In this document: one piece after another, positions 3,427-58,703 of the stretch
How the letters are laid out: each line of letters starts with the position of its first letter
How positions within the stretch are numbered: position 1 is the stretch's first letter
NCBI GenBank assembly: GCA_003194525.1
Contig: NBIV01000039.1
Span: 248,001-312,000 of the forward strand
DNA: 64,000 nt
Source of the DNA: Gracilariopsis chorda
Lineage: Eukaryota; Rhodophyta; Florideophyceae; Gracilariales; Gracilariaceae
Direction of reading: 5' to 3'
Program-made: the position numbers and the translations under genes
Notes under the pieces: generated by a model
The model's input: only the letters and a program-made list of their open reading frames with translations
Database searches by the model: none
What the model was told of the DNA's origin: nothing

Positions 3427-4959
3427 CACGAGACGGTGACACAGGGGGCCAAAATAAATGACAAATTTGCCTAAAAAAGGTATTCCTCGTAGCTCGAAGC
3501 CCCAAAAAGATGAAACAACACGATCAAAAGATCAAATGAACAACCAATGCAGGGACCAAAAGGACTCAACCTGCAACGATAACAACAAATACAAAAGGAG
3601 AGCACAAGGCTCAATCCAAATATAAACTTCTTGATACTTCTTGAAACGGCGCACAACCCAAGAATTATTTGAAGGGTCACTAGGAGTCAGACTCCTGGCT
3701 TCCGGTAAGACACTCCGAATATGAAGTGATTTCTGCAGCCTAGCCGCTTCTGCACCAACCAGAAGCAGGTGCGTACAATCCTTACAGGGCTTCCAAAGGA
3801 GAGCTACTAACAACGGGATATGCTTTCACTCTATACCCAATCTGGCCCTTTGCAGCAGAGGTTGCACGGCACGTCGCCTGCGGACAGCTTCTCGTCAAGC
3901 ACGTCCGTCCGGAAACCACCAGGTCTTTCGACCGTCACCATTATCCGAGCAAAGCTCCGGTGGGGCTCACAGACGACAGAAGCGCCTTTGGTACACACTA
4001 CCCGTCTCCAGTCTACGCCAAGGGCGCTTCAACCGGTCTCAGCGACGGTAATGCCCCACCCCAAGTATGCACAAAGCGGCAAGCGCCTCACTAAGTGCGG
4101 TTGAGAGTTGATGGTTGATAGTAATAGTTGAGACAGTTGTGGGGGTGAGGAATTGAGATTTTGTTCTCCTTAAGATGAGTCCAGAACGAAGTTCGGGACT
4201 CAACTCGCCCTTTTAGAGAGTCAAAAAGCATGCAAAACAACACAGAAACGCATTACTACTTTCTACTTACTCATAAGTGCGTCTAGGTTACTCCATTGGC
4301 TTCTAGAAGCCTCTGGAGCTGCACAGTAACCAATAGTAATTTAGCAACTGGCGACTGCATCACCAAAATACAGTGGTAATGCTGGGGCAGCGAAGCTTAC
4401 AATGCTCCAGACACTGCTGGAGCACTCTACACGTGTGTTCCAGCAGTGCTGGAATATTCTACCAATTTCGCAACCGACAATAATATAGAGAACTGGTAGA
4501 CTTACTCTTAACACTACATTCATGAGTTATGTGAGTCAACAGATTACGGCACCTGCAAAAGTTGCAAATCTGCTATTGGTTCGTTTTGAAAATAGTAAAG
4601 TGCATTGAAATATCTGTGATCTAATACGTCTATTTCCATGAAAAGGTTCCCAAACACAAGCATATTTCTTTGTCTATCCTTCCTACAACTATACGTCCCA
4701 TGCCTATAAGCTTATCATAATAATATGGATGTATGCTAGTGTTTAGGTCGATGTTGTGGACACGTGTAGGAAAGTTTCTCACATTACCCATTGTATGTTT
4801 CAATCTCAAAGATAATCTGTTTCCCCCTTCATACTTCGTTGCTATCAGCTTTTTTGATGCTGGGAAGTATCCTCATATCAATGCAAAGTCGGGGCATGTC
4901 GTGTTTGCCAAAGTTCATGTCGTCGTTGTGGGTGTTCTTGTGATGGAGTATCTCCTGCT
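3427..4959. other. Leader/LTR-candidate region of element A and unassigned DNA
   Basis: No supportable gene. The part next to gag (about 3430-4250) probably holds the 5' leader and LTR of element A, because gag starts at 3426 and no other element end is visible, but no PBS matching a tRNA 3' end was recognised. From 4260 to 4960 the DNA is AT-richer with no coding signal that I trust. Confidence 0.4.
4404..4454. repeat. Pair of short perfect palindromes
   Basis: Two adjacent dyads: 4404-4423 (GCTCCAG, 6-nt loop, CTGGAGC) and 4438-4454 (TTCCAGCA, single G, TGCTGGAA). The core CCAG...CTGG is shared, so this may be a duplicated binding site or the eroded end of an element. Confidence 0.6.
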
Positions 4960-6872
4960 GTGGCATTGAGCCGCAAACGAGGAAATCAAGGCACCAGAAA
5001 TACACGGGGTCTTCCCGTCCGGCCGGCACCAAAGAAAGCTTGGCTATCTATAGGTAATGCCCTCGAAAACGGTCCAAGGCTCGTTAGACCATTCTCAGAC
5101 ACTACTTTGCAAACTGTGTCGGATATTTGGCGTTCATTTGGATGGAATCTGGCTACAAAACAAAATCTACCCCATCAGCATGACAGAGAGAATAACGTCT
5201 CTCTTAAGGAAAAAAACGTCGATGGAGCACAATGATTCAAACTGTGCTGTCCGGATCAGTGCAACTATCCCAGCTCATCTATCCGGCTGGTAATTCGGAA
5301 TTATTGCAAGACATTGCCAGAAATATATTGGCATCAGTGCCATCTGAGAGCAAGCAGATGGGAAAAATAGTTGAAGCATTAACAAAAACATACGCAAATG
5401 CACCAAAGGGTAGTCTTCAGGGCCGTGTTGCTGGAGCTGTTCTAGTGAAATCGCTATCGAAAAGGGACATATTTTAACTTCGTGATCAGAACAAGAAGGT
5501 TTCTCTCGGAGGCCTAAGCTTAGATACTGCATCTAAAAATTCCAGGGAAATGGTTTCTGGCAAGGCAATTCGTAAAACACAGGTCTCAAGGGCTAGGTTT
5601 GATCCAACAGCTGTTGCAGAGGCTCTAAAATTTTTGTTCAATCCGTCACATGTCGGGACTCTTTCATGGGGATATAAGGTTTTGAGAATATCTGCAAATG
5701 AAACGATTCCGCTACCAGCCTTGTCACATCGCGAAATAAGAAAAGATATCTACTTGGAGTACGTGACGTTTTGCGACCAAGAAAGTGCTACACATATTTC
5801 TCGGGGTTCGTTTGTGTTTAGCTAATGTTTAGTGTTATATTTGGGTAAGAGAGACTTCCCACTGCTGTTGAAAATGTTACTGTTCTGTTGGGTAAACGAT
5901 ACAGTTCAGTTTCTGCACCTACTTGCGGAGGATTTCGCCGAAACTCAACATCTTGCAAGCTAGTATCCTATCACATATAAATCATGTGCAACTTTTTCCG
6001 GCAGCAGTATGATTCTCATGCAGTGAGAATGGGTGACAAATCTCACAACCATGGCATTTATTATGGCTTGTAAAGGTCTCATAATAATCCAACACGCCAG
6101 AAAGAATATTGCAATACATATCAGTTTAGTACCGTTGTCTTCATAGAACTCAGGTGGCTGTTTCAAGTATATACAAACAAGCCTCCCGATTCCATGCAAG
6201 ACGCGTTGTCTGTATTGACAGATATAGACGAAAAAATAAAACTGTATGGCGGTCATCGTATACGCGTAAGTAATCAGCAGGATGTAATCTGTTCTTTGCA
6301 TTCTTCTTTGGAACCAACGTGTACACAAGGAGATCCAACAACACATGCTGGAGCTGTAATGGACTGGAAGATGAAATTAGAGACTATGTTGGGACGCGAA
6401 ACGACCCAGCAACACTTCGGTAAACGCGTTATTGTATGGCATAGATTTTTAGCAAGTTATTTTCTTCTGGAGGATGGAGAGGATGTTTTTATACTGTATA
6501 CTGCGACCAAGTACTCGATGGTACTAGCAAGCAGAACAACCTGGCAGTAGTTACAATGACTGAATGCTTTCTATTGCAACTTAAACAAGAAATAACATTC
6601 TTAGAATCTGTCACACAGCAGTCTAACAACGCTGGTTGTTATCATTCGAACGAGCTACTACTACTTTTACCGATTATTAGTGAAGCCTCAGCCATGAAAG
6701 CTTTACGGTTCATATATACTAAACGCAAGATGGTAAGGGACTTATTTACGCGCATTTAGCGAGAGGTACTGCACACATCAAGACGTTCATAAGAACGTCT
6801 CAAAGAAACAAAATACGGACAATTGCAACACAGAAAGTCTTGGCAGCAGCAATGGCATGTGGAAGAGGTATA
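4960..6872 (+). pseudogene. Decayed DDE-type transposase-like gene, 5' part
   Basis: Coding fragments in shifting frames. A block at 5232-5822 is one frame with a single TAA at 5475 and contains the motif LSWGYKVLRI and a downstream DIYLEY. A block at 6194-6550 contains DWKMKLETML, FGKRVIVWH and a late Tyr-rich end. A block at 6556-6759 contains SNNAGCYHSNELLLLLP and continues in another frame with HIKTFIRTSQRNK up to the chromovirus insertion. Acidic residues in DWKMK and in the degraded S(D/N)NAGCY motif are candidate DDE ligands. I recognise the pattern as a dispersed transposon protein found in protists and invertebrates but cannot name the superfamily. The gene continues at 12040. Confidence 0.6.
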
Positions 6873-7084
6873 TATGGATTGGCAGGACCTCACGATATTC
6901 GTTCGCAAGCAAGCAGCACCCAAAGGCCAATGGATCGATGAGGAGCTCCTTCTCCCCCCTCTCGCTCCCTTGGCTTTAATAAAGTAGTGTAGATTTCCAA
7001 AATTATAATTAGAAGTTGGGAGCACTGGCTCGACGGCGCTCAAAATACCCGACAGCAACTGACAGCGAGCTTGTGCGCGCCGCA
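6873..7084 (-). repeat. 3' LTR of chromovirus B
   Basis: Direct repeat partner of 11826-12039; the best-conserved core spans about 6897-7084. Left boundary is uncertain by a few bases because the terminal bases are mutated (TG at 6875 rather than at the exact target boundary). Confidence 0.7.
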
Positions 7085-7090
7085 GTGGTC

Positions 7091-7666
7091 TCAGCAACAA
7101 TGTTCGTTTGTTTCCTCAGGAAAGAAAAGTCGCATAGCTCGCTGCTTGAGCTCGCTTTTTTTCTTCATATAAAGAAAGTCCTGTAAAACGCCAGGTAGAT
7201 TTTCTGCTATGTTGCTGAGTGGGTTATACGTGAGGTCTACCTCATCGGGTAAACCATCCCACTGGACTAGTAGATCAATACCATTGGGTCCATCGCGGAT
7301 ATCACACAGCGAGTCAGCAGTCTGTACCTCTGTTTCGTTCATGCGCGCATACTGAAGCAATGCTGGATCAGCTTTCTTGCCATGCAGGTCTGCACGGTAC
7401 AGTATCATTTGGGATACATTCACCACCTGTTTTCTTTGATCAATGATGTTTTCGACTCCCAAAACCCAATCTGATTTGCTGGAAACAACACAGCGTGGCT
7501 CTTTCCACATGAACTGCAACTTGTGGGTCCTTTGTGATCGTGCTTCTTTAACCAGAACAAAACTGGCAACCAATATTTCGCTGCAGCGTATATTGGTCTT
7601 TTTTTTATGATGCTCGAGACTTCTTATCCGGCTCTTGCTCACTGTCGACTCGACATTTCTATGCAT
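7091..7666 (-). pseudogene. pol: Integrase C-terminus with chromodomain-like segment, element B
   Basis: A 191-residue open frame ending just inside the left LTR. The second half carries GIDLLVQWDGLPDEVD followed by YNPLSNIAENLPGVLQDFL, which is the chromodomain pattern (conserved aromatic-x-W, then a helix) of Ty3/gypsy chromoviruses. The usual W of the TWEP motif has been replaced (TYNP), so one wall of the methyl-lysine cage may be missing. The first half looks like the SH3-like GPY region (VSSKSDWVLGVENIID). Chromodomains direct integration toward marked chromatin in known elements. Confidence 0.65.
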
Positions 7667-8745
7667 GTCGTACAGTGTCTTTTAAAGTTCATCGACCCCA
7701 ATAGGCTGCCTCATGCGGATTTCATCGTGACATGTAGCGTGAGCAAACCGCTTGACCGGCCACGCCATCATGAGTGGCCTCAAGGGAACATGCCCAGTAA
7801 CACCATCGAGCAGTGTGCCTTATACGAGAGGTTCATCACTGCTGCGAATGCCAAGACGCTATAAAGGCTCATGATTCAGCACGCTCTGAACACATTCTGC
7901 AACTCGTGGCCATTCGTTCTTCTTGATCTTCCATTCCGACAGAATACCTTTGCAGGCTCTTAGCACTTCTCGAAAATTCCTATCTACTGACCCATTGCTC
8001 CGAGGACAGTATGGCGTCATAAAGTAATGCGAGTAGTAGAACTCTTCAGAAAGCCGGGGTAGTAACTGATTCTTAAAGTATGCACCTTGATCAGATACTA
8101 ATTAGTCCCAGCCCCCAAATGAAGCAATCCACATGCTCTTTGCTTCGGCGACTGCTTTGCTGTCCGCCTTTATGCAGGGCCACAGCCACAAATAAGGTGA
8201 AAGGTCATCACAAATAATTGAAATGTACTTCTGCTGCGTCGTGCTCTCTCCCATGAAAAAAACGCAGTGAAGAATCTCATTGGGTTTTGTAGTATGTATG
8301 GCACTTCAAAATGGACGGGAGATCCGCATGCCCGCTTGAGAGACAATGTACTGTATAAATATTTGATGGAGTATATCACATCAAGTCTTTGTGTTCTCCA
8401 GAACACTTGTTCACGCAACAAGTTGATGGTGGCGTCCACTCCACGATAACCACGCACTCCACAGTGCGCTACGACCATGAACTTCAGCAGCAGTTCTTTG
8501 TCCGATTCTGAAATAAGAAAAGCAATCGAAACCATCCAGGTGTTTGTAGTGTTGTTCCACGTCTGATTCATACAGTTGTTGGCCGCTATCCCTGCTTTGG
8601 CTTCAGATTCTCTTACCATGCCTACAGTCGTCCATATGAAATCTTTCCGGGTAGGTATAATTTGTTCGGCTCTCATGACCAAATTTTGAACTGATCTCAT
8701 AGATTTTTGGCATGTTTGGTAGGATTTGGTCCATCTTGTTAGCAT
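7667..8745 (-). pseudogene. pol: Integrase zinc-binding and core domains, element B (broken)
   Basis: Minus-strand translation gives a zinc-binding-like stretch (VVAHCGVRGYRGVDATINLL, then WRTQRLDV) at about 8380-8480. At about 7870-8110 it gives a core stretch VSDQGAYFKNQLLPR, then FMTPYCPRSNGSVDRNFRE. The position that is Glu in the D,D-35-E triad reads Asp here (GSVDR). Stops and frame changes separate the blocks, so no integrase could be made. The piece next to 8200 is the first-Asp region but is too degraded to place that residue. Confidence 0.6.
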
Positions 8746-15314: not shown

Positions 15315-16141
15315 TGTGGTGCAATGCCCCAAAGGGGAAAAACACCGAAAGAAGTTCGGGATCTTCCTCTCACGAGGTGAACCCAGTTGGGTAGAGCCCT
15401 CCCAGAGGTGTCACGGCGAAGCCGGTTTGTAAGACCAGGGACACCTGTCGCGACTCGCGCAGGGAGGTGAAGGCGAAGAATCGGTATCTGCGTGGGCGGG
15501 GTGTGATCCTCAGTAGGGGTATGTTTCCACGTAAGTGGGGGTGTGTGAGCGTATGCGCACACGAGGGCCGCGGATAGCGGGAGGTGCTACCCTAAAAAGG
15601 GGAAGAAGGAAGGGCGAAGAGGAGGAAGAGAGGACGAAGTGAGTCGCGAGAGCGACGAACAGATAGGGCAATGCCGGTGGACAGGACTCCCTATACAGGG
15701 CGAAACACCAATATGATTGGAACAATTATATTCCCAAGGATGGGCTTCTTTAGAAGTGCAAGGGGGTTAGATGTCCCGTGGTTCACGGCGTTTCCCTCCA
15801 AGGAGGAGTAGAGCACGCGCGCAAGCGGCAACAACTAGAGCCAATTCCCCAGGTTGGGGTCCCTTGTTGGAGAAGGTTTACTGGTGCGACGGCAGTGCGC
15901 CGTCGCACTAAGTACTAACTTCCCAGAAATGGGTGTGAAAATAATAAATAATATTAACTAAAATACTCCACATTTCGTGGCAACATCCACTACTGTGGCC
16001 AACCGCCAATTGACCCAAAACCGTGTCACACGTGTCCATATACACCATAGTGGGGCGTAGTTCATATACAAACTACACAACCGATAATATCGGGAAAGCG
16101 TTCAACTACCTAGAATCCCTCCCTGAGGGCGTTGCACTACA
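15315..16141 (-). repeat. 3' LTR of element C
   Basis: 827 bp, TGTGGTGCAA...TTGCACTACA, with imperfect inverted termini. Same length as the 24402-25228 copy. It contains many GC-stemmed hairpins and one long dyad with 9-bp arms (GCGACGGC...GCCGTCGC type). Confidence 0.95.
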
Positions 16142-16153
16142 TATCCCCCCCTA
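16142..16153 (-). other. Polypurine tract of element C
   Basis: On the minus strand TTAGGGGGGGATA lies immediately upstream of the 3' LTR: the classical position and composition of the plus-strand primer for reverse transcription. Confidence 0.8.
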
Positions 16154-16396
16154 AGACGGGAAAACGACCGCGGACGCGGAGGGTTCCCAGACAAAAATGG
16201 GTGATAAAAGCGCGTACGCCGTCTCCGGTTCTTCTTTCCTGGCATAGCCGGCTATTGTAGTATAGTGTTGTGGGGAGCTAGCTGCTCCCTTGAATAAACT
16301 TTCCCGTTTTGAACGGTGATTCTCGTTTGAGTTCCCCGTCTTCGACGGACCTTGCCTTGTTATCCTTTCCTATCGCCCTCCGTTCGCGCGGCAACG

Positions 16397-17350
16397 TTAC
16401 CCAGCTCTGGCATTTACCAGCGTGGCTGGAGCTGCAGTTCCCGTTTGACGGTGGTATCGCACGACCTGCGACCGTGGGAGGTGTTCGATTGGCTCCCACG
16501 TATCCCCACTGGGGTCATACCCGTACCAGCGGACGCGGTATTGTAGAATACCATCCTGGTCCCAGGTGTGTCCGACAAGTCGGTCTACTACGAACTCTCG
16601 TTCGTAGACCTGCCGGCCGTGCCGGGTGGTGGTTGTATTCCCTTGCGGGGGCTGCCCGCTGTGCGGTATAATGTCCCTTAGCAGGGTGGTTGGCGATAAC
16701 TCCGGCGTTGCCGTGCGCTGTGATAGCGGCCGCTGCTCATGCGGGAAGATATCCCTCAAGAGGGTGTGTGGTGCCACGGTTATCACCGGCAAGTCATTCC
16801 CCATTGGGGCAGGTTCATTTCCGCTTTCGGGGTATTGTGGGCGAACCGCCAGTCGGCGGGGGACTTGGGCTCCGCCTTCGCGGTTGAGCTCACGAACCGC
16901 GAGTTTGCGGGAAGATGACCGCTCCTGCGGAATTGGCATTTCCACAATCCCCTGGGGGGTCCCGTGCGACACGGTGATTGGGTGGCAAACCGCCTCCCTG
17001 CCAGGCGCCCGAGCGCTCTGCACCATACGTTCCGGCGATGCCGTGGTGTCCCCGGCTACTGAAGCGTTGCATGGGGCTAACTCCGGTACACCGGTATTTT
17101 GGTCAAAATTCCCCTTTGGGGGGTGCCGGGCAGGTGCAGATGACACCCTTTTCAGGGGCTTGGCCGCTAAGTGCGGTGCACCGTCTCCACGCTGAGGAGC
17201 AGCGTCCGGTATGACCGGTTTCGAGTGTGCGATGGCGTGCGCTTTTTCCGAGTTCCTCGGGTCTTCCCCGCAGCGTTGCGGGAGGTGGCGCAAACTATTC
17301 CCCGGAACGGGGCCTTCAATTCCGTCGACGACGGGAGGCGTTTCCGGCAC
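16397..17350 (-). pseudogene. pol: Chromodomain and proline-rich linker at the end of element C pol
   Basis: Frame of about 318 residues, open upstream to about 17635, so it can be reached from the integrase frame by one frame change between 17572 and 17635. The first 240 residues are a low-complexity linker rich in Pro, Ala, Arg and Ser. The C-terminus is a clear chromodomain: VYEREFVVDRLVGHTW, LQYRVRWYGYD, then DTWEPIEHLP (about 16430-16615). The aromatic cage residues (Y/F near the start, W of RWYGY, W of TWEP) are all present. Chromodomains of this kind steer integration toward methylated-histone chromatin. The linker is unusually long; its sequence may owe more to the hairpin tiling than to protein constraint. 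Confidence 0.8.
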
Positions 17351-17571
17351 TTGCGGGCCAGGGTCTGAACCTTCGGCTGCGGCTTGGCTGCCTTTTTCCC
17401 CAGGAGGGGTGTGGGGATTTCCCAGCCGCGCTGGTGTATCTGGGCGCCTCTTCTCCGCAGGGCGCTGGTCTGATCGACCTGATTGTACCGCTTCCGCGGG
17501 GACTTCCGCAAACGGCGGCTTTGAGGCATCGCCCTGCTGAGGGGATTGAGGGCAATCGTCACCATACTCCC

Positions 17572-19707
17572 TTATTGGGGATCCTTCCCTGACAGGGGTG
17601 TGCGGTAGTTGCGCTTCAACTTCCCGTGTAGCACGTTATATTTTCCGCGTTTGTGGCGATGCCTCCAGGGATGGATCGGGCGATTGCATTTCTGCTGCTG
17701 CGGTATTGGAGGGAGGCTTCTCGTTTTCCCGTGCAAACGGTGTATTTGCCGCTTTTGCGGGGCCTGCGCGTCTGGTTCCTGTTGCACAGCACTGCCCGGG
17801 AACGGGGGATTAGTGTCGCGTGACATAATCCGTGCTCCACGTTCAGTGTTCCGTATGTTACGGTGGGTTTCCCGTTGCGACGGCGATATCGTTCCTCGAA
17901 AACGAGTGTTCTCCTCCCCCTCCTTAGACGGAGCGGCGGGATAAGGGATAACATTCCCCGCCTGGCGGGTATAAATGCGCGCCAGTGTAGCAGAAGTGGT
18001 AGGGGCGGGCGCTGAGAGGCCCGAATTACCCGGCTGAGCCGGTGAGTCCGACAGAGTCGGTAGGTCTGAGAGTCCCCGGCTGGGGTGTGGTAGTACCGTA
18101 GACCTAGTACTCCCGGATGATTCCGGTGTTGCAGAGTCCGTAGAAACAGGGTTGCGTGGATCCAGGACTACCTCTGACGAGGGAGGAGGGGCAATGACAA
18201 CACGATCACGGGAAATCCGTTCGTGCGTGTCGCCCATCTCTACCACGACAGAGTCGGTGTTAACAGAGATGACCTTGAAGGGTCCCTCCGCCACAGGCCA
18301 GAGTTTGTGACGCTTCTCCCGTTCCGGGTTGTAGTATTTCTTCCTGATGAAGACGTAGTTATTTGCCCAAATCGGGGGGGTTTTTCCGCGCAAGCGAGCG
18401 TCAAAATCCCGCTTGTAAGCGCCTTGGGCCCGTGCCATAGACTTCCGCGCAGCGGGGACCAGCCTGGAAAGCCATTGCTTCCATTGCTGCCAGTAGATAC
18501 CCACAGATGGGAAATTGTCCAAGGTAGCTTGGCGTTCCAGCGCCACAGGCGGGGGTGTTCTAGATAGAACCAACTCGAATGGCAAAACTCCGGTAGTCCG
18601 GTGTACCTGCGTATTGTACGCGTAGGTTACCGCATCAGCGTACATGTCCCAGTTCTTTGGGTGGTCTGCGACGTAGGAACGTAACGCCACGAGTAACGTC
18701 CGGTTAAACCGTTCAACTTGCCCATTACACTGGGGGTGGTAGGTAGTCGTGAACAAGTTCTTGACATCCAGGATGCGACAAACATCCTGGAAGAACTTGC
18801 TCACGAACTGTTTCCCGTTATCGGAGAGCACCTCCACAGGGGGACCGTAGACAAAAATCCAGTGCGTCACCAGAGCCTGGGCCACCGTGAGAGCGGTTAT
18901 CCTCCGAAGAGGGACAGTCCGTACCAGCTTAGAAACGCGGTCGGTAATGACAAGTAGAAACTTGTTTCCACGTTTAGTGGTGAGTAGTGGTCCGAGAATA
19001 TCGATCGCGATAAACTCGAATGGCGCCCTTGTGGGGAATATTTTCATCTTCTTCGCATTTTTGCGGAGCGTGACGCGATTGTTCGCGCATTCGCTACAAA
19101 ACTGCACGGTTGCGTAGCAATCCACGGCCATGGCGGGCCAATAGAAATCCCTTCGCAGGGTTAGGTAGAGTTTCCTCCCACCTGGGTGACCTCCGATGGG
19201 GGCGTAGTGTGATAGATGTAACACCCGCGATTGCAGGGAATGTGGTACCACAATCTGTGGGCAGGCTTCGACCTTCCTTACGAGGTAGCCTTTGTCGTTT
19301 ACCCCGAAAGGGAGATCTTCACCACCGTTGATACGGGCACGAATCCTCGTACAGAATGGGTCGCCGAATTGTTCCCGGATCATTTCTTCCGGTGATACCG
19401 GTACAAAGTTTCCCGGTAACGGGTTCTCAGATTCATCTCGCGATGCAAGTAGTTCGTCAAAATCAGCATCCTCGTTCCCGTTTTCTGGCCCAGCCTCGAC
19501 GGCACATTCCGGATCATCCGGGTCTATGGCCATGAAACATGGGACTTCATCATCCTTCGTTGGTAGTGCTTCCCCACTTGTGGGTGACCGCGACAAGGAG
19601 TCGGCTTGGGTGTTCTGCGCGCCCTTTTCATAAATGACTTGAAAGTCATATTCCGCGAGGCGGAGTCTCCAGCGCATGAGGCGTCCCGACGGGTCGGAGA
19701 TATTCAT
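17572..19707 (-). pseudogene. pol: RNase H end and integrase of element C
   Basis: 711-residue segment in the same frame as RT, following an in-frame TGA at 19708. It starts with the RNase H tail (RWRLRLAEYDFQVIYEKG, then NTQADSLSRSP). The integrase zinc finger reads HLSHYAPIGGHPGG ... FCSECANN (HHCC). The core reads FIAIDILGPLLT (Asp), VEVLSDNGKQFVSKFF (Asp) and HPQCNGQVERFNRTL (Glu), a complete D,D-35-E. A GPY-like region (YVFIRKKYY ... KLWPVAEGPFKVI) follows, then a long polar tail ending at TAA 17572. Because the catalytic triad is intact, damage to this copy is limited to the stops. Confidence 0.9.
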
Positions 19708-19995
19708 TCACCACCTCAATGAAGAATGATCCGTGTACACGGTGAAGTGAATTCCCATAAGGTAGGGGCGCAGAGTGGTCATCGCCCATACGACGGCGAG
19801 GCACTCTTTCTCCGATACGGAGTAGTTCCGCTCATGAACATTGAGCGAGAGCGACCAATAACCAATTGGATGTCGTTCCCCCTCGGGGGTGGTTTGAAAA
19901 AGAGCACACCCGACTTGGTAGTCGCTCGAGTCCGTATCTACGGAGTATGGCAACCCAAGTTTTGGGAGATGTAGGATTGGTGCTGATGTGACAGA
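19708..19995 (-). pseudogene. pol: RNase H segment between two in-frame stops, element C
   Basis: In frame with RT and integrase, bounded by TAG at 19996 and TGA at 19708. It contains YSVDTDSSDYQVGCALF, CLAVVWAMTTLRPYL and FTVYTDHSSLRW, the RNase H core motifs (DTDSS, E of SEKECLAV, TDH). The TGA replaces a codon that is Leu in related elements, so a single substitution explains it. Confidence 0.85.
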
Positions 19996-22104
19996 CTACT
20001 TGAAGGAGTTAAAAGCTTCCGATTGCTCGGGCGTAAATGTTCCCAGTTTTGGGGGGTTCCACTTTCGCAACAACGCGTTCAGGGGCGCCGCCGTATCCGA
20101 AAAGTTCGGGATAAACCTTCGATAGACGTTGACCAGCCCCAAAAAGGAACGCAGTTCCGTTTGAGTACGGGGTTCTTTCGCCTCAACAAGGGATTTGACT
20201 CGAGCTTTCTCGATCGCTAACCATCCAGGACGGATAATGTGACCCAGATACTTCACAGTACCCGTGAAAAACTCGCATTTCCTCAACTTGAGGGTAATTC
20301 CCGCATCGCGGAGTACGGTCAGCACGTCTCGGACGTGAGTGAGATGGTCGTCCAACGAGTTGGAGAAGATGATAATATCATCAAGGTAGACCAGACAACT
20401 CCGCCACTTAAAGCGGTTGAGTAGAATATCTACTGCACGCTGAAAGGTGACGGGGGCGTTGGTTAACCCGAATAGCATCCGCTTGAAGCGGTACGTTCCT
20501 GCGTGGCAAGTGAATGCGGTTTTGTCGCGATCCTCCTGTCTGACAGGTACTTGCCAGTATCCCCAATTGGCATCGAGGGCCGTGAACACGGTGGCGTCTC
20601 CAAGGGAGTCAATACACTCGTCCATACGAGGGATAGGGTATGTATCCCCAACGGTCACGGCATTGAGCCGGCGGTAGTCGACACAGAACCTCCAGGTTCC
20701 GTCGGCCTTTAAAGCCAGTACAACTGGGGATGCCCAGGGTGAATGAGCGGGCTCAATCACACCTGCGCGGAGCATCTTGTCCACTTGGGACTGCTCCTCT
20801 TCCAGAGCTTTCGGACCTGCCCTGTAAGGGGGTTGTGCAACCGGTCGCGCACCGGGGATTAATTCGATCCGGTGTTCCGTTGCATTAATCTCGCCAAGCG
20901 AGCCATCCCACATTGTGGTGAATTCCCGTAACATAGTACGGAGTTTGTCACGGTGCGACTCTGGCACGTGGCTGAAGTCCAGCGCTTCAAGTGCTTTTTC
21001 CGGATCAATCCGGTCGTTGCTCGATGGAGCATTGTCCTGTGGAACCGGTGTGGTTCGCATTTCCGAGTTACTCGGTATGTTCGACGCTGAAGTAGCGGTT
21101 TCCTCCCCCTCCTTAGACTTGACGTCTTCGGACGGCGGGGCGAACTCCTCAGAAGAGGTGGTAACTCCGAGTACATCGGCGGCTGTCATCTTCGTTGGCG
21201 GCATTCCCATAGGATGGGGGGTTACACTCCCAATTACTTGGTGTTTTACCAGATACTGGGGGTGTTTGCCAAGGTTGGCAACCAATATCCGGAAAGGAAC
21301 ATCCGGGGAAATGGAGACAATTCCATTAGCCAGCGCTAGCTGGGATTTCTCGTACAACGAGGCGAGGGGTTGTATAACCCGAAGACCGTGTTGACGGGAA
21401 TTTACCTGCACCCAGACTTGGGACTCAGCCGGTATAGAAACCGAGGCAGCGACGCGGAGCTTGGTGGACTCGCGGGACGTGGGCGGTGGTTCCTGCGCAG
21501 CAGGGAGCGGAACTTGTTTCCGAGAGGACCGCTTTAGCGGGCGGCGAACAATCGGAACCGACGATCCGTCGTCAAGTTCTACACGCCTGAGGCGGGGCCT
21601 GATTGCGTCGACAAATCTGTCGCAGTAATCACATCCCAGTATCACTGGTGCTGCCAATGAACGGCAAACGATGAAGTCCAACTTCACCACGGAGGTACCA
21701 AGTCTCACGACGAGGTCCACTGTGCCCACCGTTTGTAACGGATTGTTGTTCGCATCCGAAAGGTCGGGGACCGCGTCAGAGCGGATACGAGACCACACAA
21801 GCGGGGGTAACAATGATTCCACAACAAAGTTGGGGCCTGCACCTGTATCCAGGACGGTGAGAAACCTCACCATAAACTGGGGATCAAGGCCAAGGTTGGC
21901 ATAGACCTTATAATTGCGCTTGGCCAAGACCAAGACTCTACCGGGAATCCGGGGATTTTTACTCCGTATCCACGGGCGACGCAACACACCGAGGTGCGCA
22001 GAGTCCGCGTCAGCGGTGTCTTTCCTCGAGAGGACTCTCACCGGGGAGCGAGGCAAGGACGCCTCGGGCGCCAACAGCCTCTTTCTTGAGGACGCCTCTC
22101 CCAA
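19996..22104 (-). pseudogene. pol: Protease and reverse transcriptase of element C
   Basis: 702-residue segment. Retropepsin motif FLTVLDTGAGPNFVV near residue 85 and FIVCRSLAAPVILGCDYC downstream. RT: FCVDYRRLNAVTVGD, FTALDANWGYWQVPV, MLFGLTNAPVTFQRAVD, catalytic LVYLDDIIIFSNS, KCEFFTGTVKYLGHII. Both catalytic Asp are present. There is no ATG at the start and the frame is open upstream past 22122, so translation would come by a -1 shift from the nucleocapsid frame; the sequence GGAAAAC just before that frame's TAA (minus strand, about 22124-22130) is a possible slip site. Ends at TAG 19996. Confidence 0.9.
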
Positions 22105-22121
22105 AGGGGAGACTCCCTCAG

Positions 22122-22619
22122 TTAGTTTTCCGCCTTCGGCGGTGGGTTGGTTTCCTCGACAACGAGTGCTTCATCCCGCTGACGAAGGGTTCTATCCGCA
22201 TAAGCGGGGGTTGCAACGGATGGTTGCGTGATCTCCCGAATCGGGGTGTATGAAGCTTGCCGCGCACGCGGGGTCTGTGGTAGGGCGTGGGAAAAGTCCG
22301 TTTTAGCACGGAGGTAGGAAGCCGTCGGGACGGAACGTTTCTCCTCTGGAGTGAGGGCCTCATAATTTGCCACCACCTTGGCCATATCCTTCAGTGAACA
22401 AATACAATGAGGGGAGGTATGGCCATGGGCATAGCACAGGTGGCAAATGAGAGCCAATACCGCGACACGCGGATTATTATTCCGAGTATCGGAGAAGCGA
22501 ACCGCAGGGCGGGTGTCAGTCCATCCAGGCCGTTGATAACGGGATTGACCGTTTGAAAACGGGAGTCTTTGGGGTTGAACCCGACTGTTACCACCATACA
22601 AAACAGGGTCTTCCGTTCC
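22122..22619 (-). pseudogene. gag: Nucleocapsid extension of Gag, element C
   Basis: Continues the Gag frame beyond the TAG at 22620. It carries one CX2CX4HX4C zinc knuckle, CHLCYAHGHTSPHC, near the middle, then a charged tail ending at TAA 22122 (PPPKAEN*). Its separation from capsid by a stop codon is odd because Gag normally includes nucleocapsid. Confidence 0.75.
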
Positions 22620-24296
22620 CTAATCACGGGTCATCTCCGTCGTTGACGGTAAATCACTGGTGGGTATCGACACACCATCCTCCTGCACCAAATGCACGGT
22701 ATCAAATCCCTGTCCAGGGTTCCCATCCGCGGTGAGCGGGGGTGTGGAAGCTTCGCTTTCCAGCAACAACGCCTTGGCGGATTTAGACCGATGGTTCGGA
22801 GTTCTTGCACGGAGTGCATCCCCTTCCGCTCGGGCGTGTTGGACCAGCTCGAGATAGGTGATTCTCTGCTTGTCCTCCCGATAACGGGTAACTAAACTCC
22901 GGATTGCCGGGTCAAGACCATCGATGAACATGGTACTGCGCTCCCCAGCGGGGTATACGTTACCACATCTGTGGAAAGCCTTGTTAAGGCGCACCGAGTA
23001 ATCGGTCTCGGTCTCTCCAGCACGCTGGCGTGTATCTCGCAAAGCGAGGATAGCCTGCTGAATAGCGGTGTTTGTGGCGTAGGAGCGCAGAAGATACTGC
23101 ACAGCCTCCGGCCAGCAAGTAACTCCTCCCTCGGAGGCACGAGAAGATCCTCTGACAGAGTTGTATTGGTCCTCTGCCACTCCCCGTAAGAAATACGGTA
23201 AAGCCAAATAGGCTTGTCCCTCATTCATACCGAGGATATCGGCCTCCGCTACAAAGCGGGATAGGAAATCCAGTACTAGGACTGGGTCCTCTCCAGTAAA
23301 ATACTGGTTGCGGAGCGAGAGCTGCATTCGCTTAATGCATTCTCGCACCTTTCCCGTACCACGGGGCGTACGTCCAAGTGACAAGTCTTCGAGCCGGTAG
23401 TACCGGTATGATAAAAGCTTCCGGTAATCCGGGTTTGTCGGTTTCAATTCCCGAAGACCGCGGTGTCTTCTCCCCTTCTGGCGGGTTCGGACCACACCTT
23501 CAGTGGCCGATGACCGCTTCGAGCGGGAGGAGTAGCCTCGCTTCTCGTCCTCCGAGTCGGAGTCCGAGGAGCTCGAGCTAACCGAATGGTTTCGGGGTGA
23601 GTCCGACGATGTCGAAGAATCGGAGTCCGAATATTTTCGGTAGTGTTTCCGTCGATGACGGCGTTTCTTCTTCCCAGCAAGCTGGTCGTTGTGCGATGCC
23701 TCGTTTACCGGATCATCCCGGGATGGTTTGTCCATGAGGACGAACTGCTCCAGCGTCTCCAGGTGGGCACCAATCCTATCAAATCGGGCTTCAACTCCTT
23801 CGATGAAGGTGGCGGGTTGTCCCAAACTCTCCAACACGGAGTTGACGTCAGACCGTAGAATACGGAGTTCCTCGGCGACCTCCTTTACGGGCGTTGCCAA
23901 GACCACCTCTTGGAGGGATTTTAGTTCCCGTACAAGGGTGTCATAGGCGGTCCACAGAGCGCGGACCTGGGATTCCAGGGACGTCCCCGGGGGGGTGTTA
24001 TCGCCCGTTCCACGGGGGTTTGAAGCCGCGACAGCGGGAGCGGGCCGGGGTGGCTGGGGCACTGCGGCAACAGCCGGAGTCGATGCTGCATTCCCCTGCG
24101 GGGGTGATAACGAGGGCAAAAGGAGGTTCCGGGGTTCCCGGCCGGGGGTATCATTCCGCGATGAAGCGGCGCCAGCACGGCTGGAACTTGTCCGTATAGG
24201 GATACAGGGTACGAACTGAACTTCGGAAGTGTCCGCGTTGTCGCGGGAGCGACTACGCGTAACCACTGGCTCCGCATCGGAGGGATTTGTCGACAT
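22620..24296 (-). CDS. gag: Gag capsid polyprotein of element C
   Basis: 558 residues from ATG 24294-24296. N-terminal 100 residues are Pro/Ala-rich. A helical segment follows, then a Ser/Asp/Arg low-complexity stretch (SDSDSSTSSDSPRNHSV) near residues 215-250, and a capsid-like domain (about 300-520) with YFTGEDPVLVLDFLSRFV, SVRGSSRAS and ETETDYSVRLNKAFHRCG, typical of retrotransposon Gag (RETROTRANS_GAG-like). Ends in TAG followed by GGA, 324 residues before the pol TTG codon. The 3' context UAG-GGA resembles the readthrough site of murine leukaemia virus gag, which would let nucleocapsid be added at low rate; decay by a point mutation is the simpler explanation. Confidence 0.85.
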   Translation of the reverse strand: MSTNPSDAEPVVTRSRSRDNADTSEVQFVPCIPIRTSSSRAGAASSRNDTPGREPRNLLLPSLSPPQGNAASTPAVAAVPQPPRPAPAVAASNPRGTGDNTPPGTSLESQVRALWTAYDTLVRELKSLQEVVLATPVKEVAEELRILRSDVNSVLESLGQPATFIEGVEARFDRIGAHLETLEQFVLMDKPSRDDPVNEASHNDQLAGKKKRRHRRKHYRKYSDSDSSTSSDSPRNHSVSSSSSDSDSEDEKRGYSSRSKRSSATEGVVRTRQKGRRHRGLRELKPTNPDYRKLLSYRYYRLEDLSLGRTPRGTGKVRECIKRMQLSLRNQYFTGEDPVLVLDFLSRFVAEADILGMNEGQAYLALPYFLRGVAEDQYNSVRGSSRASEGGVTCWPEAVQYLLRSYATNTAIQQAILALRDTRQRAGETETDYSVRLNKAFHRCGNVYPAGERSTMFIDGLDPAIRSLVTRYREDKQRITYLELVQHARAEGDALRARTPNHRSKSAKALLLESEASTPPLTADGNPGQGFDTVHLVQEDGVSIPTSDLPSTTEMTRD

Positions 24297-24386
24297 GAGA
24301 AAATGCCGTTACGACGGGAAACGATCACGGTACTTCCGGTGAATAAAAACTAACCTCGTAAGAGGGAAAACAAAAACCGATTCTAG

Positions 24387-24398
24387 GTCGGGAGACCA
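24387..24398 (-). other. Candidate tRNA primer-binding site of element C
   Basis: On the minus strand the internal region begins AAG and then TGGTCTCCCGACC, three bases after the LTR end. TGG pairs with the CCA tail of a tRNA and the next bases would pair with an acceptor/T-arm 3' strand reading GGTCGGGAGA. Which tRNA it is cannot be told without a tRNA set of the species. Confidence 0.65.
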
Positions 24399-24401
24399 CT
24401 T

Positions 24402-25228
24402 TGTGGTGCAATGCCCCAAAGGGGAAAAACACCGAAAGACGTTCGGGATCTTCCTCCCACGAGGTGAACCCAGTTGGGTAGAGCCCTCCCAGAGGTGTCA
24501 CGGCGAAGCCGGTTTGTAAGACCAGGGACACCTGTCGCGACTCGCGCAGGGAGGTGAAGGCGAAGAATCGGTATCCGCGTGAGCGGGGTGTGATCCTCAG
24601 TAGGGGTATGTTTCCACGTAAGTGGGGGTGTGTGAGCGTATGCGCACACGAGGGCCGCGGATAGCGGGAGGTGCTACCCTAAAAAGGGGAAGAAGGAAGG
24701 GCGAAGAGGAGGAAGAGAGGACGAAGTGAGTCGCGAGAGCGACGAACAGATACGGCAATGCCGGTGGACAGGACTCCCTATACAGGGCGAAACATAAATA
24801 TGATTGGAACAATTATACTCCCAAGGATAGGCTTCTTTAGAAGTGCAATGGGGTTAGATGTCCCGTGGTTCACGGTGTTTCCCTCCAAGGAGGAGTAGAG
24901 CACGCGCGCAAGTGGCAACAACCAGAGCCAATTCCCCAGGTTGGGGTCCCTTGTTGGGGAAGGTTTACTGGTGCGACGGCAGTGCGCCGTCGCACTAAGT
25001 ACTAACTTCCCAGAAATGGGTGTGAAAATAGTAAATAATATTAACTAAAATACTCCACAGTTCGTGGCAACATCCACTACTGTGGCCAACCGCCAATTGA
25101 CCCAAAACCGTGTCCCACGTGTCCATACCCACCATTGTGGGGCGTAGTTCATACACACACTACACAACCGATAATATCGGGAAAACGATCAAGTACCAAG
25201 AATCCCTCCCTGAGGGCGTTGCACTACA
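24402..25228 (-). repeat. 5' LTR of element C
   Basis: 827 bp with the same termini as the 15315 copy. About thirty perfect short dyads were counted by eye, eleven with stems of five or more pairs, including CCGTG-GTT-CACGG at 24863-24875 and a nine-pair stem at 24972-24994. Confidence 0.95.
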
Positions 25229-34751: not shown

Positions 34752-36065
34752 TTACGAGACTGCAGCGCGTTTGGATGGAACCCCACTCTGCTCGTCGAGC
34801 ACGCGCTCGCTTTCAACAAAAGCGCAAAATACAAAACTTATGTAGAGATAACCCAGACTCAAACTTGCGAACATGCCTCTCCATGATCCGCCCAGCCAGT
34901 CCATGACCTTTGTGGATAAAGGAATAGAAATAAAGCCCGCGAAGCTGGCCATAGTGTTGGATGTGGCTTTGAAAATTCCAACAACACTTGGTGCAGCCAT
35001 ATCCATGAAAGAACTGGCGTAACCGCCACTGTTGAGACTCATGAATGCCAAACTCAACGATATGTACATTAAAGCTTCATGAACTGTCTTTGCGGCGGCA
35101 AAGGCGACCAGTAATACTGCAGCGCCCAGATTAGCAATAAGAGTAACGGTTTTTCGAACGCGCGTGAGTGTCATTCCATATCGCAGAAGAGCGTCGGCTA
35201 GATAGCCGCCTATGTTTCCGCTGACGGCCATAGAAAAGTAAGGGACAAAGGTAAAGGACAGGTCTGTGGTTTGGATGGAATACACGTTCTTGAAATATGA
35301 TGGGAGCCAGCTTAGAATGACGTAATGTACGAGACCAAATACAGCTTGAGTTTGACAGACCGCTAAAGTACGTTTGTTGCGCAAGATCGCCATAATTAGA
35401 CGCACTTCTTGGTTGGAATTGAGGGAGGTGCCAATACTGGAACTTGACGAAGAAGTGTATCCTTCTTCCAGCGAAACGGGTTCAAACCCGGCATTCTTCT
35501 CGTCGCGATCGTACGCAATGAAGTGCCAGGCTGCTACCCAGACAAAGCCAACAAGCCCAAAGGAATAAAAGATTGCTTGCCAAGATGCGTGGCGAATTAT
35601 GATCGGGGACGTAATAAGAGCGATTGTGGTGCCGACATGGGTTCCCGATATCATGAGTGCAATTCCTCTGGCACGCTCATTGGCGGGAATCCATGTGGAC
35701 AGAAAGTGGTAAAGCGAGGGATAGGCGACTCCTTCAGAAGCGCCCATAAGAATACGACAAAGCACCAGAACTGTAAAGCCCGTTTGGCAAGCAAGCGGAG
35801 TGCATATGGTGAAGAAGGACCACAACAGGGCACCAACGCTGAGAACATTTTTGGCGCCATAGCGCCTGCATAAGAGAGCGCCACCAAGGTTCATTGGCAG
35901 ATAGCCCAAATAAAAGTAAGACAGGATTAAGGATTGTTGATGAAGGTTGAACGAGTACTGTTCAGATATGCTGATTATGGCGACGGACATGTTGACGCGG
36001 TCGGCATAGTTTATGCAACAACATATGGAGCAGAGTACGACCATGACATATCGTTCGGGAATCAT
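34752..36065 (-). CDS. SLC17/PHT4-like anion:cation symporter (MFS)
   Basis: 437 residues from the ATG at 36063-36065 (MIPERYVMVVLCSIC). Upstream codons stay open to 36194 but only with a TTG start and a His/Pro-rich composition, so they are left out. Major facilitator protein with about 12 hydrophobic segments. Seen: INYADRVNMSVAII in helix 1, YLPMNLGGALLCRRYG, RILMGASEGVAYPS with the conserved R in helix 4, a central charged loop with poly-Ser (about 190-210), GGYLADALLRYG and GGYASSFMDMAAPSVVG near the end. This arrangement is that of the SLC17 family, which in plants and algae moves phosphate or other anions. No transit peptide is evident; membrane and substrate cannot be told from sequence. 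Confidence 0.88.
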   Translation of the reverse strand: MIPERYVMVVLCSICCCINYADRVNMSVAIISISEQYSFNLHQQSLILSYFYLGYLPMNLGGALLCRRYGAKNVLSVGALLWSFFTICTPLACQTGFTVLVLCRILMGASEGVAYPSLYHFLSTWIPANERARGIALMISGTHVGTTIALITSPIIIRHASWQAIFYSFGLVGFVWVAAWHFIAYDRDEKNAGFEPVSLEEGYTSSSSSSIGTSLNSNQEVRLIMAILRNKRTLAVCQTQAVFGLVHYVILSWLPSYFKNVYSIQTTDLSFTFVPYFSMAVSGNIGGYLADALLRYGMTLTRVRKTVTLIANLGAAVLLVAFAAAKTVHEALMYISLSLAFMSLNSGGYASSFMDMAAPSVVGIFKATSNTMASFAGFISIPLSTKVMDWLGGSWRGMFASLSLGYLYISFVFCAFVESERVLDEQSGVPSKRAAVS

Positions 36066-37499
36066 AATGATACAGTGAAGGATGAATGACGAGCTGTGAG
36101 GGCGTAAGCCGGGAGGGCAGGGGTGAATGTGGATAGGCAGTGATGGATGCGGGTCAGCAATAATTAGTTGGATGGGGTGCGTTTGAAAGCGCAAGTTAGC
36201 CGTGGCTGGACATAATGATTACAAGAAAGAACGATTGGCGGGCGCACTGGGCTGCGGTGCTCGTGTGTCCGCTTCGCATCACCTTCGGTTGAAGCGGTGC
36301 GAATGGCGTGACAGCGTTTCTGGTAGCTGCCAGCGCTCGAATTATTGCGGCTGGGCGCCACAACGATGTGCGCAGAGTTCTTGGCACAGTGTGCTCACAC
36401 CGTGGTAACTGATGCAGCGGTCCAACCGCGGCTTACAGTATCAAAGACACATCTTCAGACAGCGTTCTTGTTCCTACCAATCAACACATCACTCTGCTGA
36501 AGTGTACCAATGCTCTGGCTGATGCTAAGCGGGAGGAAAGCCAAGCAAACGGTACCGTTGGTACCAAGGGTAGAGCACAAAATGCGTTTCGGTGGTAGCT
36601 ATCTCTAATAAACCTCTAACACAGGCCGAAGGGATGCGAAGGGGAAAAGGTTATGCGGGTACTAGGGTAGCCTTCTAATCCTTTTGCGTGCGCTAGACAA
36701 TGGGCAGGCGAGTGTTCTGGTGTGCTGAGAATACGAACGTGGTAGCGGTGCACGTAAACGGATAAGGGTGAACCTTCTTAACCAAACTTATAACGATACC
36801 ATCACAAATGCTGCTGTATGTATTCTTGTCAGCTGTCTTCTTCTTTATTGCGAGTTCAATAAGCTTGATTACGGCATATTGATAGTGGTTTCTTATGAGA
36901 AAAACCTCTCTCTCCCAAGAAAGACTAGCAACTTCTGTGGCCACTGGCGGACTATCTCTGTCAAAGTCTTACCTGTCCTGTTTGCTGGGGCAGGGAGCTC
37001 CCGTCTCTTTCATTCCGTCCGCCTGGGTCAGTTGTCGTCGTTTATGTTATTAAAAGTAGACAAGGCCTCATTTCGATTGAGGCCTTCTACCGTTCAGATA
37101 TCCTGTGTTGGAAGCTACGGCCGGTACGAAAGTATTTGCCAACGCAAACGTACTGTGTTCTTCGATTCACCCCTTTCCGATTCACGTGAGCAAGACTTTT
37201 GACACACTATGCGTGGGATAGTGGGCGTCTGCTAGAGCTGGAATAATGTTTAGTCCAATAATGAAAGCAGATGATGGCCTGTAAAAGTGTTGGTCTACCA
37301 GGTGAGAGAGCGTTTCTTTGATCGGAAACGATCTGCGCTATGTAGGGATTATACATGGGCACCTATGAAGAGAGAGAGAGAGAAAACAATGGAAGCAAGG
37401 AGTGGCACACACCGGGCGCATGAGCATACCCTTGGTACAAAAGTGTATGCTCACATTGCCCAATAATACCCAGAGCACATGATTACCGCTGTAGAAACC
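36066..37499. other. Intergenic region with a GGTACCAAGGGTA motif
   Basis: No supported gene. GGTACCAAGGGTA at 36560-36572 and its complement TACCCTTGGTAC at 37427-37438. A 144-codon open frame at 36768-37202 is hydrophobic at its start but has no family features and is not called. Confidence 0.4.
37369..37382. repeat. (GA)n microsatellite
   Basis: Seven uninterrupted GA/AG units. Confidence 0.9.
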
Positions 37500-57878: not shown

Positions 57879-58703
57879 TGTGGTGCAATGCCCCAAAGGG
57901 GAAAAACACCGAAAGACGTTCGGGATCTTCCTCTCACGAGGTGAACCCAGTTGGGTAGAGGCCTCCCAGAGGTGTCACGGCGAAGCCGGTTTGTAAGACC
58001 AGGGACACCTGTCGCGACTCGCGCAGGGAGGTGAAGGCGAAGAATCGGTATCCGCGTGAGCGGGGTGTGATCCTCAGTAGAGGTATGTTTCCAAGTAAGT
58101 GGGGGTGTGTGAGCGGATGCGCACACGAGGGCCGCGGATAGCGGGAGGTGCTACCCTAAAAAGGGGAAAAAGGAAGGGCGAAGAGGAGAAAAAGAGGGCG
58201 AAGTGAGTCGCGAGAGCGACGGGGACAAACGGCGATGCCGGTAACAATATCCCTATACAGGGCGAAACACCAATGCAATTGGAACAATTATACTCCCAGT
58301 GATGGGTCCCTTTAGATGTGCAAGGGGGTTAGATGTCCCGTGGTTTACGGCGTTTCCCTCCAAGGAGGAGTAGAGTACGCGCGCAAGCGGCAACAACTAG
58401 AGCCAATTAAACAGGTTGGGGTCCCTTGTTGGGGAAGGTTTACTGGTGCGACGGCATTGCGCCATCGCACTAAGTATTAGCTTCCCAGAAACGGGTGTGA
58501 AAATAATAAATAATATTAACTAAAATACTCCACATTTCGTGGCAACATCCACTACTGTGTCCAACCGCCAATTGCCCCAAAACCGTGTCCCACGTGTCCA
58601 TACCCACCATTGTGGGGCGTAGTTCATACACGCAATACACAACCGATAATATCGGGAAAACGTTCAAGTACCTAGAATCCCTCCCTGAGGGCGTTGCACT
58701 TCA
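57879..58703 (-). mobile_element. Solo LTR of chromovirus C family
   Basis: 825 bp, similar throughout to the two LTRs of element C, starting TGTGGTGCAA and ending TTGCACTTCA (last TACA mutated to TTCA). Flanked by TTTAG at 57874-57878 and 58704-58708, a 5-bp target duplication. No internal region, so it arose by recombination between LTRs after insertion. More diverged from element C LTRs than those are from one another. Strand is given by analogy with element C. Confidence 0.93.

Follow-up and report, generated by a model that had tools for sequence, protein, structure and literature searches.

The stretch analysed here (the window) is 64,000 bp of the genome of the red alga Gracilariopsis chorda (contig NBIV01000039.1, labelled C39 in our searches, positions 248,001–312,000). 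On its minus strand, at 15315–25228, lies a chromovirus copy (element C) filled with short hairpins, mostly with CC...GG ends. Two long terminal repeats (LTRs) of 827 bp each and 97% identity (5′ LTR, 24402–25228; 3′ LTR, 15315–16141, both minus strand) bracket the coding region, in which Pfam matches gave the order reverse transcriptase (RT), integrase (IN) and chromodomain in successive minus-strand open reading frames (ORFs). From the 5′ LTR these were a putative Gag ORF (22620–24296, 558 aa, with a basic and Ser-rich patch), a putative nucleocapsid (NC) ORF (22122–22601, in which a CCHC zinc knuckle, C-x2-C-x4-H-x4-C, was recognised by eye), the RT ORF (19996–22104; RVT_1, PF00078, 2.7e-34), an integrase ORF with a linker (17572–19707; H2C2 zinc binding, PF17921, and rve core, PF00665) and the chromodomain ORF (16397–17350; PF00385, 1e-10). 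The putative Gag ORF itself had no Pfam match, PF03732 being present in some homologues. The N-terminal part of the RT ORF had no Pfam protease (PR) match, and the protease label there is that of an earlier model-made reading of this DNA (the sequence-only reading). The pol of this copy was split into several pieces; other genomic copies of family C had open frames of up to 1885–1887 codons. The best named matches to element C were from another red alga, Agarophyton chilense (RT 66%, Gag 52% identity). Element C resembled chromoviruses (Ty3/gypsy) in its LTRs, RT, integrase, C-terminal chromodomain and putative gag; neither a chromovirus nor any other retroelement was described as hairpin-tiled among the matches listed in the open-licence literature.

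Perfect stems with loops of 2–6 nt were counted and compared with dinucleotide-preserving shuffles. Element C contained 443 stems of at least 4 bp, against 178.4 in shuffles (z 18), and 179 of 5 bp or more, where shuffles gave 44.6±6.3 (z 21), a tiling from end to end that was even stronger than the sequence-only reading had claimed. Its hand count for an LTR (about 30 dyads, 11 of them with stems of at least 5 bp) agreed well with the 3′ LTR, which contained 37 stems of at least 4 bp (12.8 expected) and 13 of at least 5 bp (3.5 expected). Stems of at least 5 bp numbered 12 in the 5′ LTR (3.6 expected) and 10 in a solo LTR of family C elsewhere in the window (57879–58700, minus strand; 3.2 expected). 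The 15.3-kb upstream flank was at expectation (69 vs. 72.2), and the 32.6-kb downstream flank (168 vs. 147.2, z 2.6) was an exception to the near-1 ratios.

For coding parts, synonymous codons were permuted in 200 runs. Stems of at least 5 bp remained in large excess in gag (32 vs. 6.7±2.5), the integrase ORF and linker (21 vs. 7.6), the chromodomain ORF (18 vs. 4.4) and the pol of another copy, L011 (61 vs. 13.3±3.5, permutation maximum 22). Host ORFs were near expectation (enolase, 5 vs. 5.1; a MARCH6-like protein, 12 vs. 9.8), as was gag/protease of element A (5 vs. 6.5). The excess was alike in LTRs, gag, NC, PR-RT, RNase H, IN and linker, i.e. in coding and non-coding parts as first described, and all ten parts of element C were enriched 2- to 6.5-fold in stable Watson-Crick hairpins. 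Since dinucleotide shuffling and synonymous-codon permutation both removed the excess, dinucleotide composition was ruled out as its cause, and so was codon bias, which the sequence-only reading had already discounted. That reading had also held that elements A and B and the host genes lack the feature, which was correct for A, B, enolase and the MARCH6-like ORF but not entirely for an MFS transporter ORF (34752–36194), alone among the three host ORFs tested in being mildly high (8 vs. 3.1 under codon permutation).

The repeated unit was a strict Watson-Crick hairpin with CC...GG ends and either 4 bp and a 4-nt loop (4/4 form) or 5 bp and a 3-nt loop (5/3 form). In element C the CC 5/3 form (a 13-mer) occurred 52 times against 1.0 expected and the CC 4/4 form (a 12-mer) 77 times against 4.7. 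The excess spanned total lengths of ~10–14 nt, with peaks at the 4-pair 12-mers and 5-pair 13-mers that have CC...GG ends. Eight 13-mers reported earlier were all present where they had been placed: CCGTC-TTC-GACGG (16336–16348), CCGGC-TGA-GCCGG (18030–18042), CCGAC-AGA-GTCGG (18048–18060), CCGCT-TGA-AGCGG and CCTGT-CTG-ACAGG within the RT ORF (20479–20491 and 20535–20547), CCGCT-TCG-AGCGG in gag (23514–23526), and CCGTG-GTT-CACGG and CCGAT-AAT-ATCGG in the LTR (24863–24875 and 25168–25180). In those starting at 18030, 20479, 20535 and 25168 the outer loop bases were complementary, which formally allows one more pair and a 1-nt loop. Stems had been described as 4–6 bp long; this was borne out for the 4/4 and 5/3 classes, but stems of at least 6 bp were only mildly enriched (31 vs. 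11.6 in shuffles). The description “nearly always” C-rich arm first was too strong, the first base being C in 101 and the first two CC in 81 of the 162 listed stems of at least 5 bp. Centres of neighbouring hairpins in element C were preferentially 18–24 nt apart, and lesser peaks lay near 42 and 62 nt. A hairpin lattice was rejected, as the spacing spectrum was broad and resembled a liquid-like order with a preferred spacing.

By searching the 91.3-Mb genome with RVT_1, two further families were obtained, X (7 loci) and Y (23 loci), in which CC dyads were 10.5–15 and 3.6–6.1 times as frequent as expected, respectively. L074 was a copy of X (99.5% DNA identity) and L071 a copy of Y (98.8%); both are left out of pooled counts below, except for the loop-base, codon-permutation G-U and loop-energy figures, where X and Y copies are counted twice. 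L075 represented a fourth family (RT 71% identical to that of C; stems of at least 5 bp, 17 vs. 5.9, z 5.0), so that three families of the same genome (X, Y and L075), beyond the view of the sequence-only reading, also showed the array. A contig from a bacterial metagenome-assembled genome (L069), probably a contaminant there from another organism, encoded an RT 48% identical to that of C and contained 31 stems of at least 5 bp (12.9±3.5 expected), with the 5/3 form at 27 vs. 4.3 and TC as the commonest opener of that form. More distant RT elements of the G. chorda genome had no array: elements A (RT 35% identical to that of C) and B (29% over 157 residues) were negative, and so were L073 (37%, z 1.0) and L072 (34%, z 1.3). 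Positive elements (X, Y, L075 and L069) thus shared 48–71% RT identity with C and the four negatives 29–37%. L070 (RT 37%) was scored neither way, its stems of at least 5 bp (49 vs. 27.5) being clustered at the 3′ end; at 6000–7951 of this sequence there were 11 and 12 such stems per kb, against 2–6 elsewhere, beside low-complexity proline/phenylalanine-rich sequence. Closing pairs differed by family, being CC-GG in C and X and more mixed in Y and L069, with TC-GA in Y. The hairpin trait belongs to a single clade of chromovirus-like elements, in which five lineages were seen, probably spanning two organisms. No relative was found among the viral contigs searched.

In C, X and L075 pooled, the CC 5/3 form was found 62 times (1.15 expected) and the CC 4/4 form 86 times (4.35 expected). 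Pairing beyond the CC...GG ends is avoided: outward extension occurred at none of the pooled 5/3 sites, where about 25 would be expected in proportion, and at 6 of the 4/4 sites, where about 29 would be. Given CC...GG ends, the inner positions were complementary far above expectation, down to a loop of 3–4 nt only; in 12-mers, pairing was 101 vs. 49 at position 3, 96 vs. 46 at position 4 and 40 vs. 42 at position 5. Pairing thus ended where the loop would drop below 3 nt, indicating that the unit folds as a hairpin rather than being read as a dyad in duplex DNA. A protein reading CC...GG half-sites on double-stranded DNA, or small mobile palindromes inserted in the element, would account for the constant CC and GG ends 12–13 bp apart, but both are highly improbable: the inner bases vary freely yet stay complementary, and the 3-nt loop floor is a rule of folding. 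At the pol sites compared (gapped sites were skipped), C, X and Y aligned codon by codon without gaps. For example, the sites aligned with the 12-mer CCGTG-TT-CACGG in RT (20580–20591) differed in X and Y by substitutions, with no gap, and this 12-mer is therefore not an insertion; palindromic insertion elements (GC clusters or MITE-like) were unsupported, no insertion relative to homologues being seen at these sites. Loop bases, pooled, showed no skew and no motif. Forms with a single mid-stem mismatch were near chance (G-T 0.72–1.41 and A-C 0.72–1.74 of expectation in C, L011, X and Y), indicating that the stem is close to all-or-none.

At least 63 copies of family C were listed, and 30 RT-region copies (5.1 kb each) were aligned. 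They fell into subfamilies, with mosaic segments that diverged by up to 30%; in the L009–L038 alignment, near-identical cores were flanked by segments 20–30% divergent (columns 0–1000 and 4200–5260). Template exchange between related elements would be expected to produce such mosaics. In subfamily A (19 copies), shared polymorphisms were rarer in CC stems (2/721) than elsewhere (52/4096, p 0.019), and likewise when dyads were defined on L017 (1/658 vs. 52/4029, p 0.005) or L009 (2/615 vs. 53/4244, p 0.040). Singletons of this subfamily did not avoid CC stems (20/721 vs. 113/4096).

Isolated changes were then counted. A change was dropped if every pairing showed a second difference no more than 14 columns away, and so were sites carrying over two alleles and columns with over three gaps; 145 private and 91 shared changes were retained, with a further 29, 30 and 16 found in L009, L029 and L017 alone, respectively. 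The shared changes destroyed 21 dyads against 35.7±7.0 expected (5 of 300 simulations were as low). Private changes destroyed 77 against 61.0±8.6, if anything above chance, and those private to L009, L029 and L017 destroyed 14, 11 and 7 (12.4, 11.3 and 6.8 expected). A first count, in which shared or deep changes gained dyads at 2–3 times chance (70 vs. 34; 119 vs. 43), was not used because one hairpin was counted for several linked changes in the ~30% divergent segments. In a test on LTRs only, 100 singletons destroyed 18 dyads (34.9 expected) yet gained 3 (10.5 expected); with both losses and gains low, the null fits badly in the LTR.

Between families, fourfold sites outside stems were saturated (27–32% identical). 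In CC stems of X they matched C at 32/52 (93/330 elsewhere, p 5e-6), and in CC stems of C they matched X at 32/69 (94/312 elsewhere, p 0.011); the corresponding values were 15/27 (p 0.004) for Y stems against C and 27/68 (p 0.041) for C stems against Y. X and Y stems remained significant with all dyad types. CC dyads at the same place in C and X numbered 11, against 1.0 under codon permutation (maximum 3 in 100 runs), and most CC dyads were at different places in different families. Purifying selection thus keeps the hairpin stems intact in the replicating lineage, with turnover of their places, and the core claim, that element C and its relatives carry selected single-strand hairpins, is very probably correct. 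As the families share few places and yet are all dense, hairpin density would be maintained while places turn over.

The sequence-only reading had suggested that template switching perfects imperfect dyads. In a purely mutational origin of this kind, RT would fold back and perfect the dyads with no benefit to the element. Arm copying would be expected to leave strict Watson-Crick arms, loops of hairpin size and a near symmetry of the strands, but it also predicts excess gains, multi-base changes in one arm and many compensated stems, of which the first was not seen and the others were rare. Isolated private changes gained 13 dyads against 13.2 expected, although many of these changes may be host mutations after insertion and not RT errors. 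In eight overlapping comparisons of copies, dyads that one copy had and the other lacked differed by one stem base in 131 of 148 cases; of the remaining 17, 8 had changes confined to one arm. Stems were unchanged in 187 cases, broken in 155 and changed yet still perfect in three. Pairs broken between subfamilies were 25 G-T and 26 A-C, in keeping with near strand symmetry. Together with the different treatment of CC stems by private and shared changes and the conservation of these stems at saturated fourfold sites, this makes a purely mutational origin very unlikely.

Several results weigh against selection with turnover. Subfamily B (8 copies) alone was not significant (0/686 vs. 13/4164, p 0.24). 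With all dyad types, the depletion of polymorphisms amounted to no more than a trend (10/1441 vs. 47/3648, p 0.076; 10/1359 vs. 45/3586, p 0.13), and so was fourfold conservation of C stems (p 0.15 against X, p 0.19 against Y). Shared changes in family Y did not avoid dyad loss (8 vs. 9.7, 34 changes), and family X offered only 5 shared changes for this test. Isolated shared changes of family C gained 10 dyads against 8.7, with no excess, so that recovery of density is suggested between families only.

Folding energy was calculated for 75 windows of 120 nt in element C and compared with composition-matched shuffles. Mean z on the sense and antisense strands was -1.45 and -1.04 for C, -0.73 and -0.93 for X, -0.57 and -0.88 for Y, -1.20 and -1.04 for L069, and -0.61 and -0.58 for L075. 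In C, 43 of the 75 sense windows had z below -1; sense means for host, A and B were -0.05, -0.14 and 0.05. The earlier proposal of selection on the fold of the genomic RNA was retained as to selection on a fold, but not as to the sense RNA, since tolerance of G-U pairs in the sense strand was not clear. Pooled sense G-U hairpins numbered 165 against 143.8 in dinucleotide shuffles (z 1.8), giving no clear sense-RNA polarity. The folding excess was present on both strands, and the hints of polarity in G-U pairs and loops were towards the complementary strand.

These same hints would fit hairpins that hold the minus strand, either first-strand cDNA or antisense RNA, e.g. protecting or chaperoning single-stranded cDNA; strict pairing fits DNA. 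Antisense G-U (G-T) hairpins numbered 294 against 174 in dinucleotide shuffles (z 8.4), but under codon permutation of the coding parts z was 2.0 for sense and 2.9 for antisense, the difference (42 vs. 27.7±15.2) was not significant, and the antisense excess of C was mostly in the IN and IN-chromodomain region. Antisense GNNA tetraloops were in excess (30 vs. 15.5, P 0.0007; 36 vs. 18.4 with two divergent C segments included), against 24 vs. 17.8 on the sense strand, among 14 loop tests tried per set. A polarity in loop energy was rejected, because antisense tetraloops (z -2.7) and antisense triloops (z +2.8) opposed each other with effects below 0.1 kcal/mol. Folding of both strands is the simplest reading; a minus-strand function, while unlikely, is a live rival. 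The symmetry is imperfect in either direction, which counts against folding of both strands alike: the G-U and GNNA excesses favour the antisense strand, and in C the sense strand folds more strongly (paired difference in folding energy -0.41, s.e. 0.15).

The stronger sense folding in C would also suit dispersed packaging or condensation signals, in which Gag binds many small hairpins of the genomic RNA, one contact per ~20-nt bead, with CC-GG as the recognition feature. The defined unit size, the closing pairs that differ by family, the preferred ~20-nt spacing with its second peak near 42 nt, the A-rich 3′ flank of hairpins in C, and the CCHC knuckle and basic Ser-rich patch in Gag are consistent with this. 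However, selection on sense RNA should tolerate G-U, which was near chance at mid-stem and showed no clear sense-strand excess under either null (above); there was no loop motif, and the flank bias was absent in X. Packaging by Gag is doubtful on this evidence, though nearly as likely as the anti-annealing function described below; near strand symmetry and indifferent loops slightly favour folding of both strands over packaging of sense RNA. The packaging structures of Ty1 and Ty3 are few and localised, unlike the element-long array of element C. That LTR retrotransposon RNAs contain sequences and structures needed for encapsidation is known for Ty1/Ty3 (PMC4974528). Multiple dispersed packaging signals, sequence-structure motifs across the genome, are described for RNA viruses (PMC6281560); element C likewise has many motifs spread over its genome. 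The viral signals share a coat-protein recognition motif; the hairpins here have random loops, with CC-GG ends common to C and X, and sense G-U is not clearly tolerated.

What may be selected is that single strands carry a local fold every ~20 nt or more, on both complementary strands and with short stems. Strands folded in this way would be slow to anneal with complementary transcripts, with small-RNA guides or with the cDNA of other copies. Perfect pairing on both strands, indifference to the loop, the limit on stem length and the cover of coding and non-coding parts are expected if each strand must stay folded, and anti-annealing is, at well under even odds, the likeliest function of the array. 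Levivirus (Q-beta) RNA is structured in both strands, which limits annealing of plus and minus strands; it resembles element C in having local hairpins in both strands but is an RNA replicon and not reverse-transcribed. The host genome contained two full-length Piwi-domain matches without stops (on contigs C77 and C163), and tandem RNase III domains were present in two ORFs (C249 and C12). In a host with such Argonaute-like and Dicer-like genes, pressure from small-RNA silencing is plausible. Partial Piwi-domain fragments were also numerous (C483, C648, C777 and C944), many of them with stops, and some recurred every ~8008 bp on C483 and C648 and on both strands; they possibly represent a repeat or mobile element carrying a decayed Piwi gene.

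Some points argue against anti-annealing. CC hairpins covered about a fifth of element C, with gaps of up to 268 nt, so many small-RNA targets would be unmasked, and closing pairs that differ between families would be better explained by a protein that recognises them than by folding alone. Taken as a whole, a clade-wide, selected array of minimal hairpins, with both strands folded and an anti-annealing function, is tentatively preferred as the best explanation, at rather less than even confidence. Put more broadly, and with similar caution, a retroelement genome built as a both-strand minimal-hairpin array might serve as a defence against annealing or RNA silencing, or as an element-long scaffold for Gag or cDNA.

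The nearest known concepts to this lineage of LTR retrotransposons with a selected hairpin array, which appears to be new, are dispersed packaging signals and genome-scale ordered RNA structure (GORS). GORS is found in positive-strand RNA viruses, where a role in escaping host sensing has been proposed (PMC3950689). As in GORS so described, structure extends over the whole genome of element C and its folding energy is below that of composition-matched shuffles; in contrast to the diffuse folding energy of GORS, element C is a retrotransposon with a size-limited perfect hairpin, preferred closing pairs and folding on both strands. If confirmed, this would be the first LTR retrotransposon lineage found with a selected structural code over its length, overlapping genes and LTRs. 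As one genome contains families that have the array and families that lack it, it would be directly testable what genome-wide structure is for (packaging, cDNA handling or small-RNA escape). Synonymous sites of mobile elements would then not always be neutral, which affects the dating of elements.

Both LTRs of element C contained one long hairpin with a 10-bp stem and a 5-nt loop (15884–15909 and 24971–24996), overlapping a 6-bp one; unlike the 4–5 bp tiling units, it is possibly a separate LTR signal. Oppositely oriented family C LTRs lay close together on contigs C229, C3, C110 and C132 (e.g. C3, 381287–382113 on the minus and 382175–383001 on the plus strand), suggesting nested or inverted insertions.

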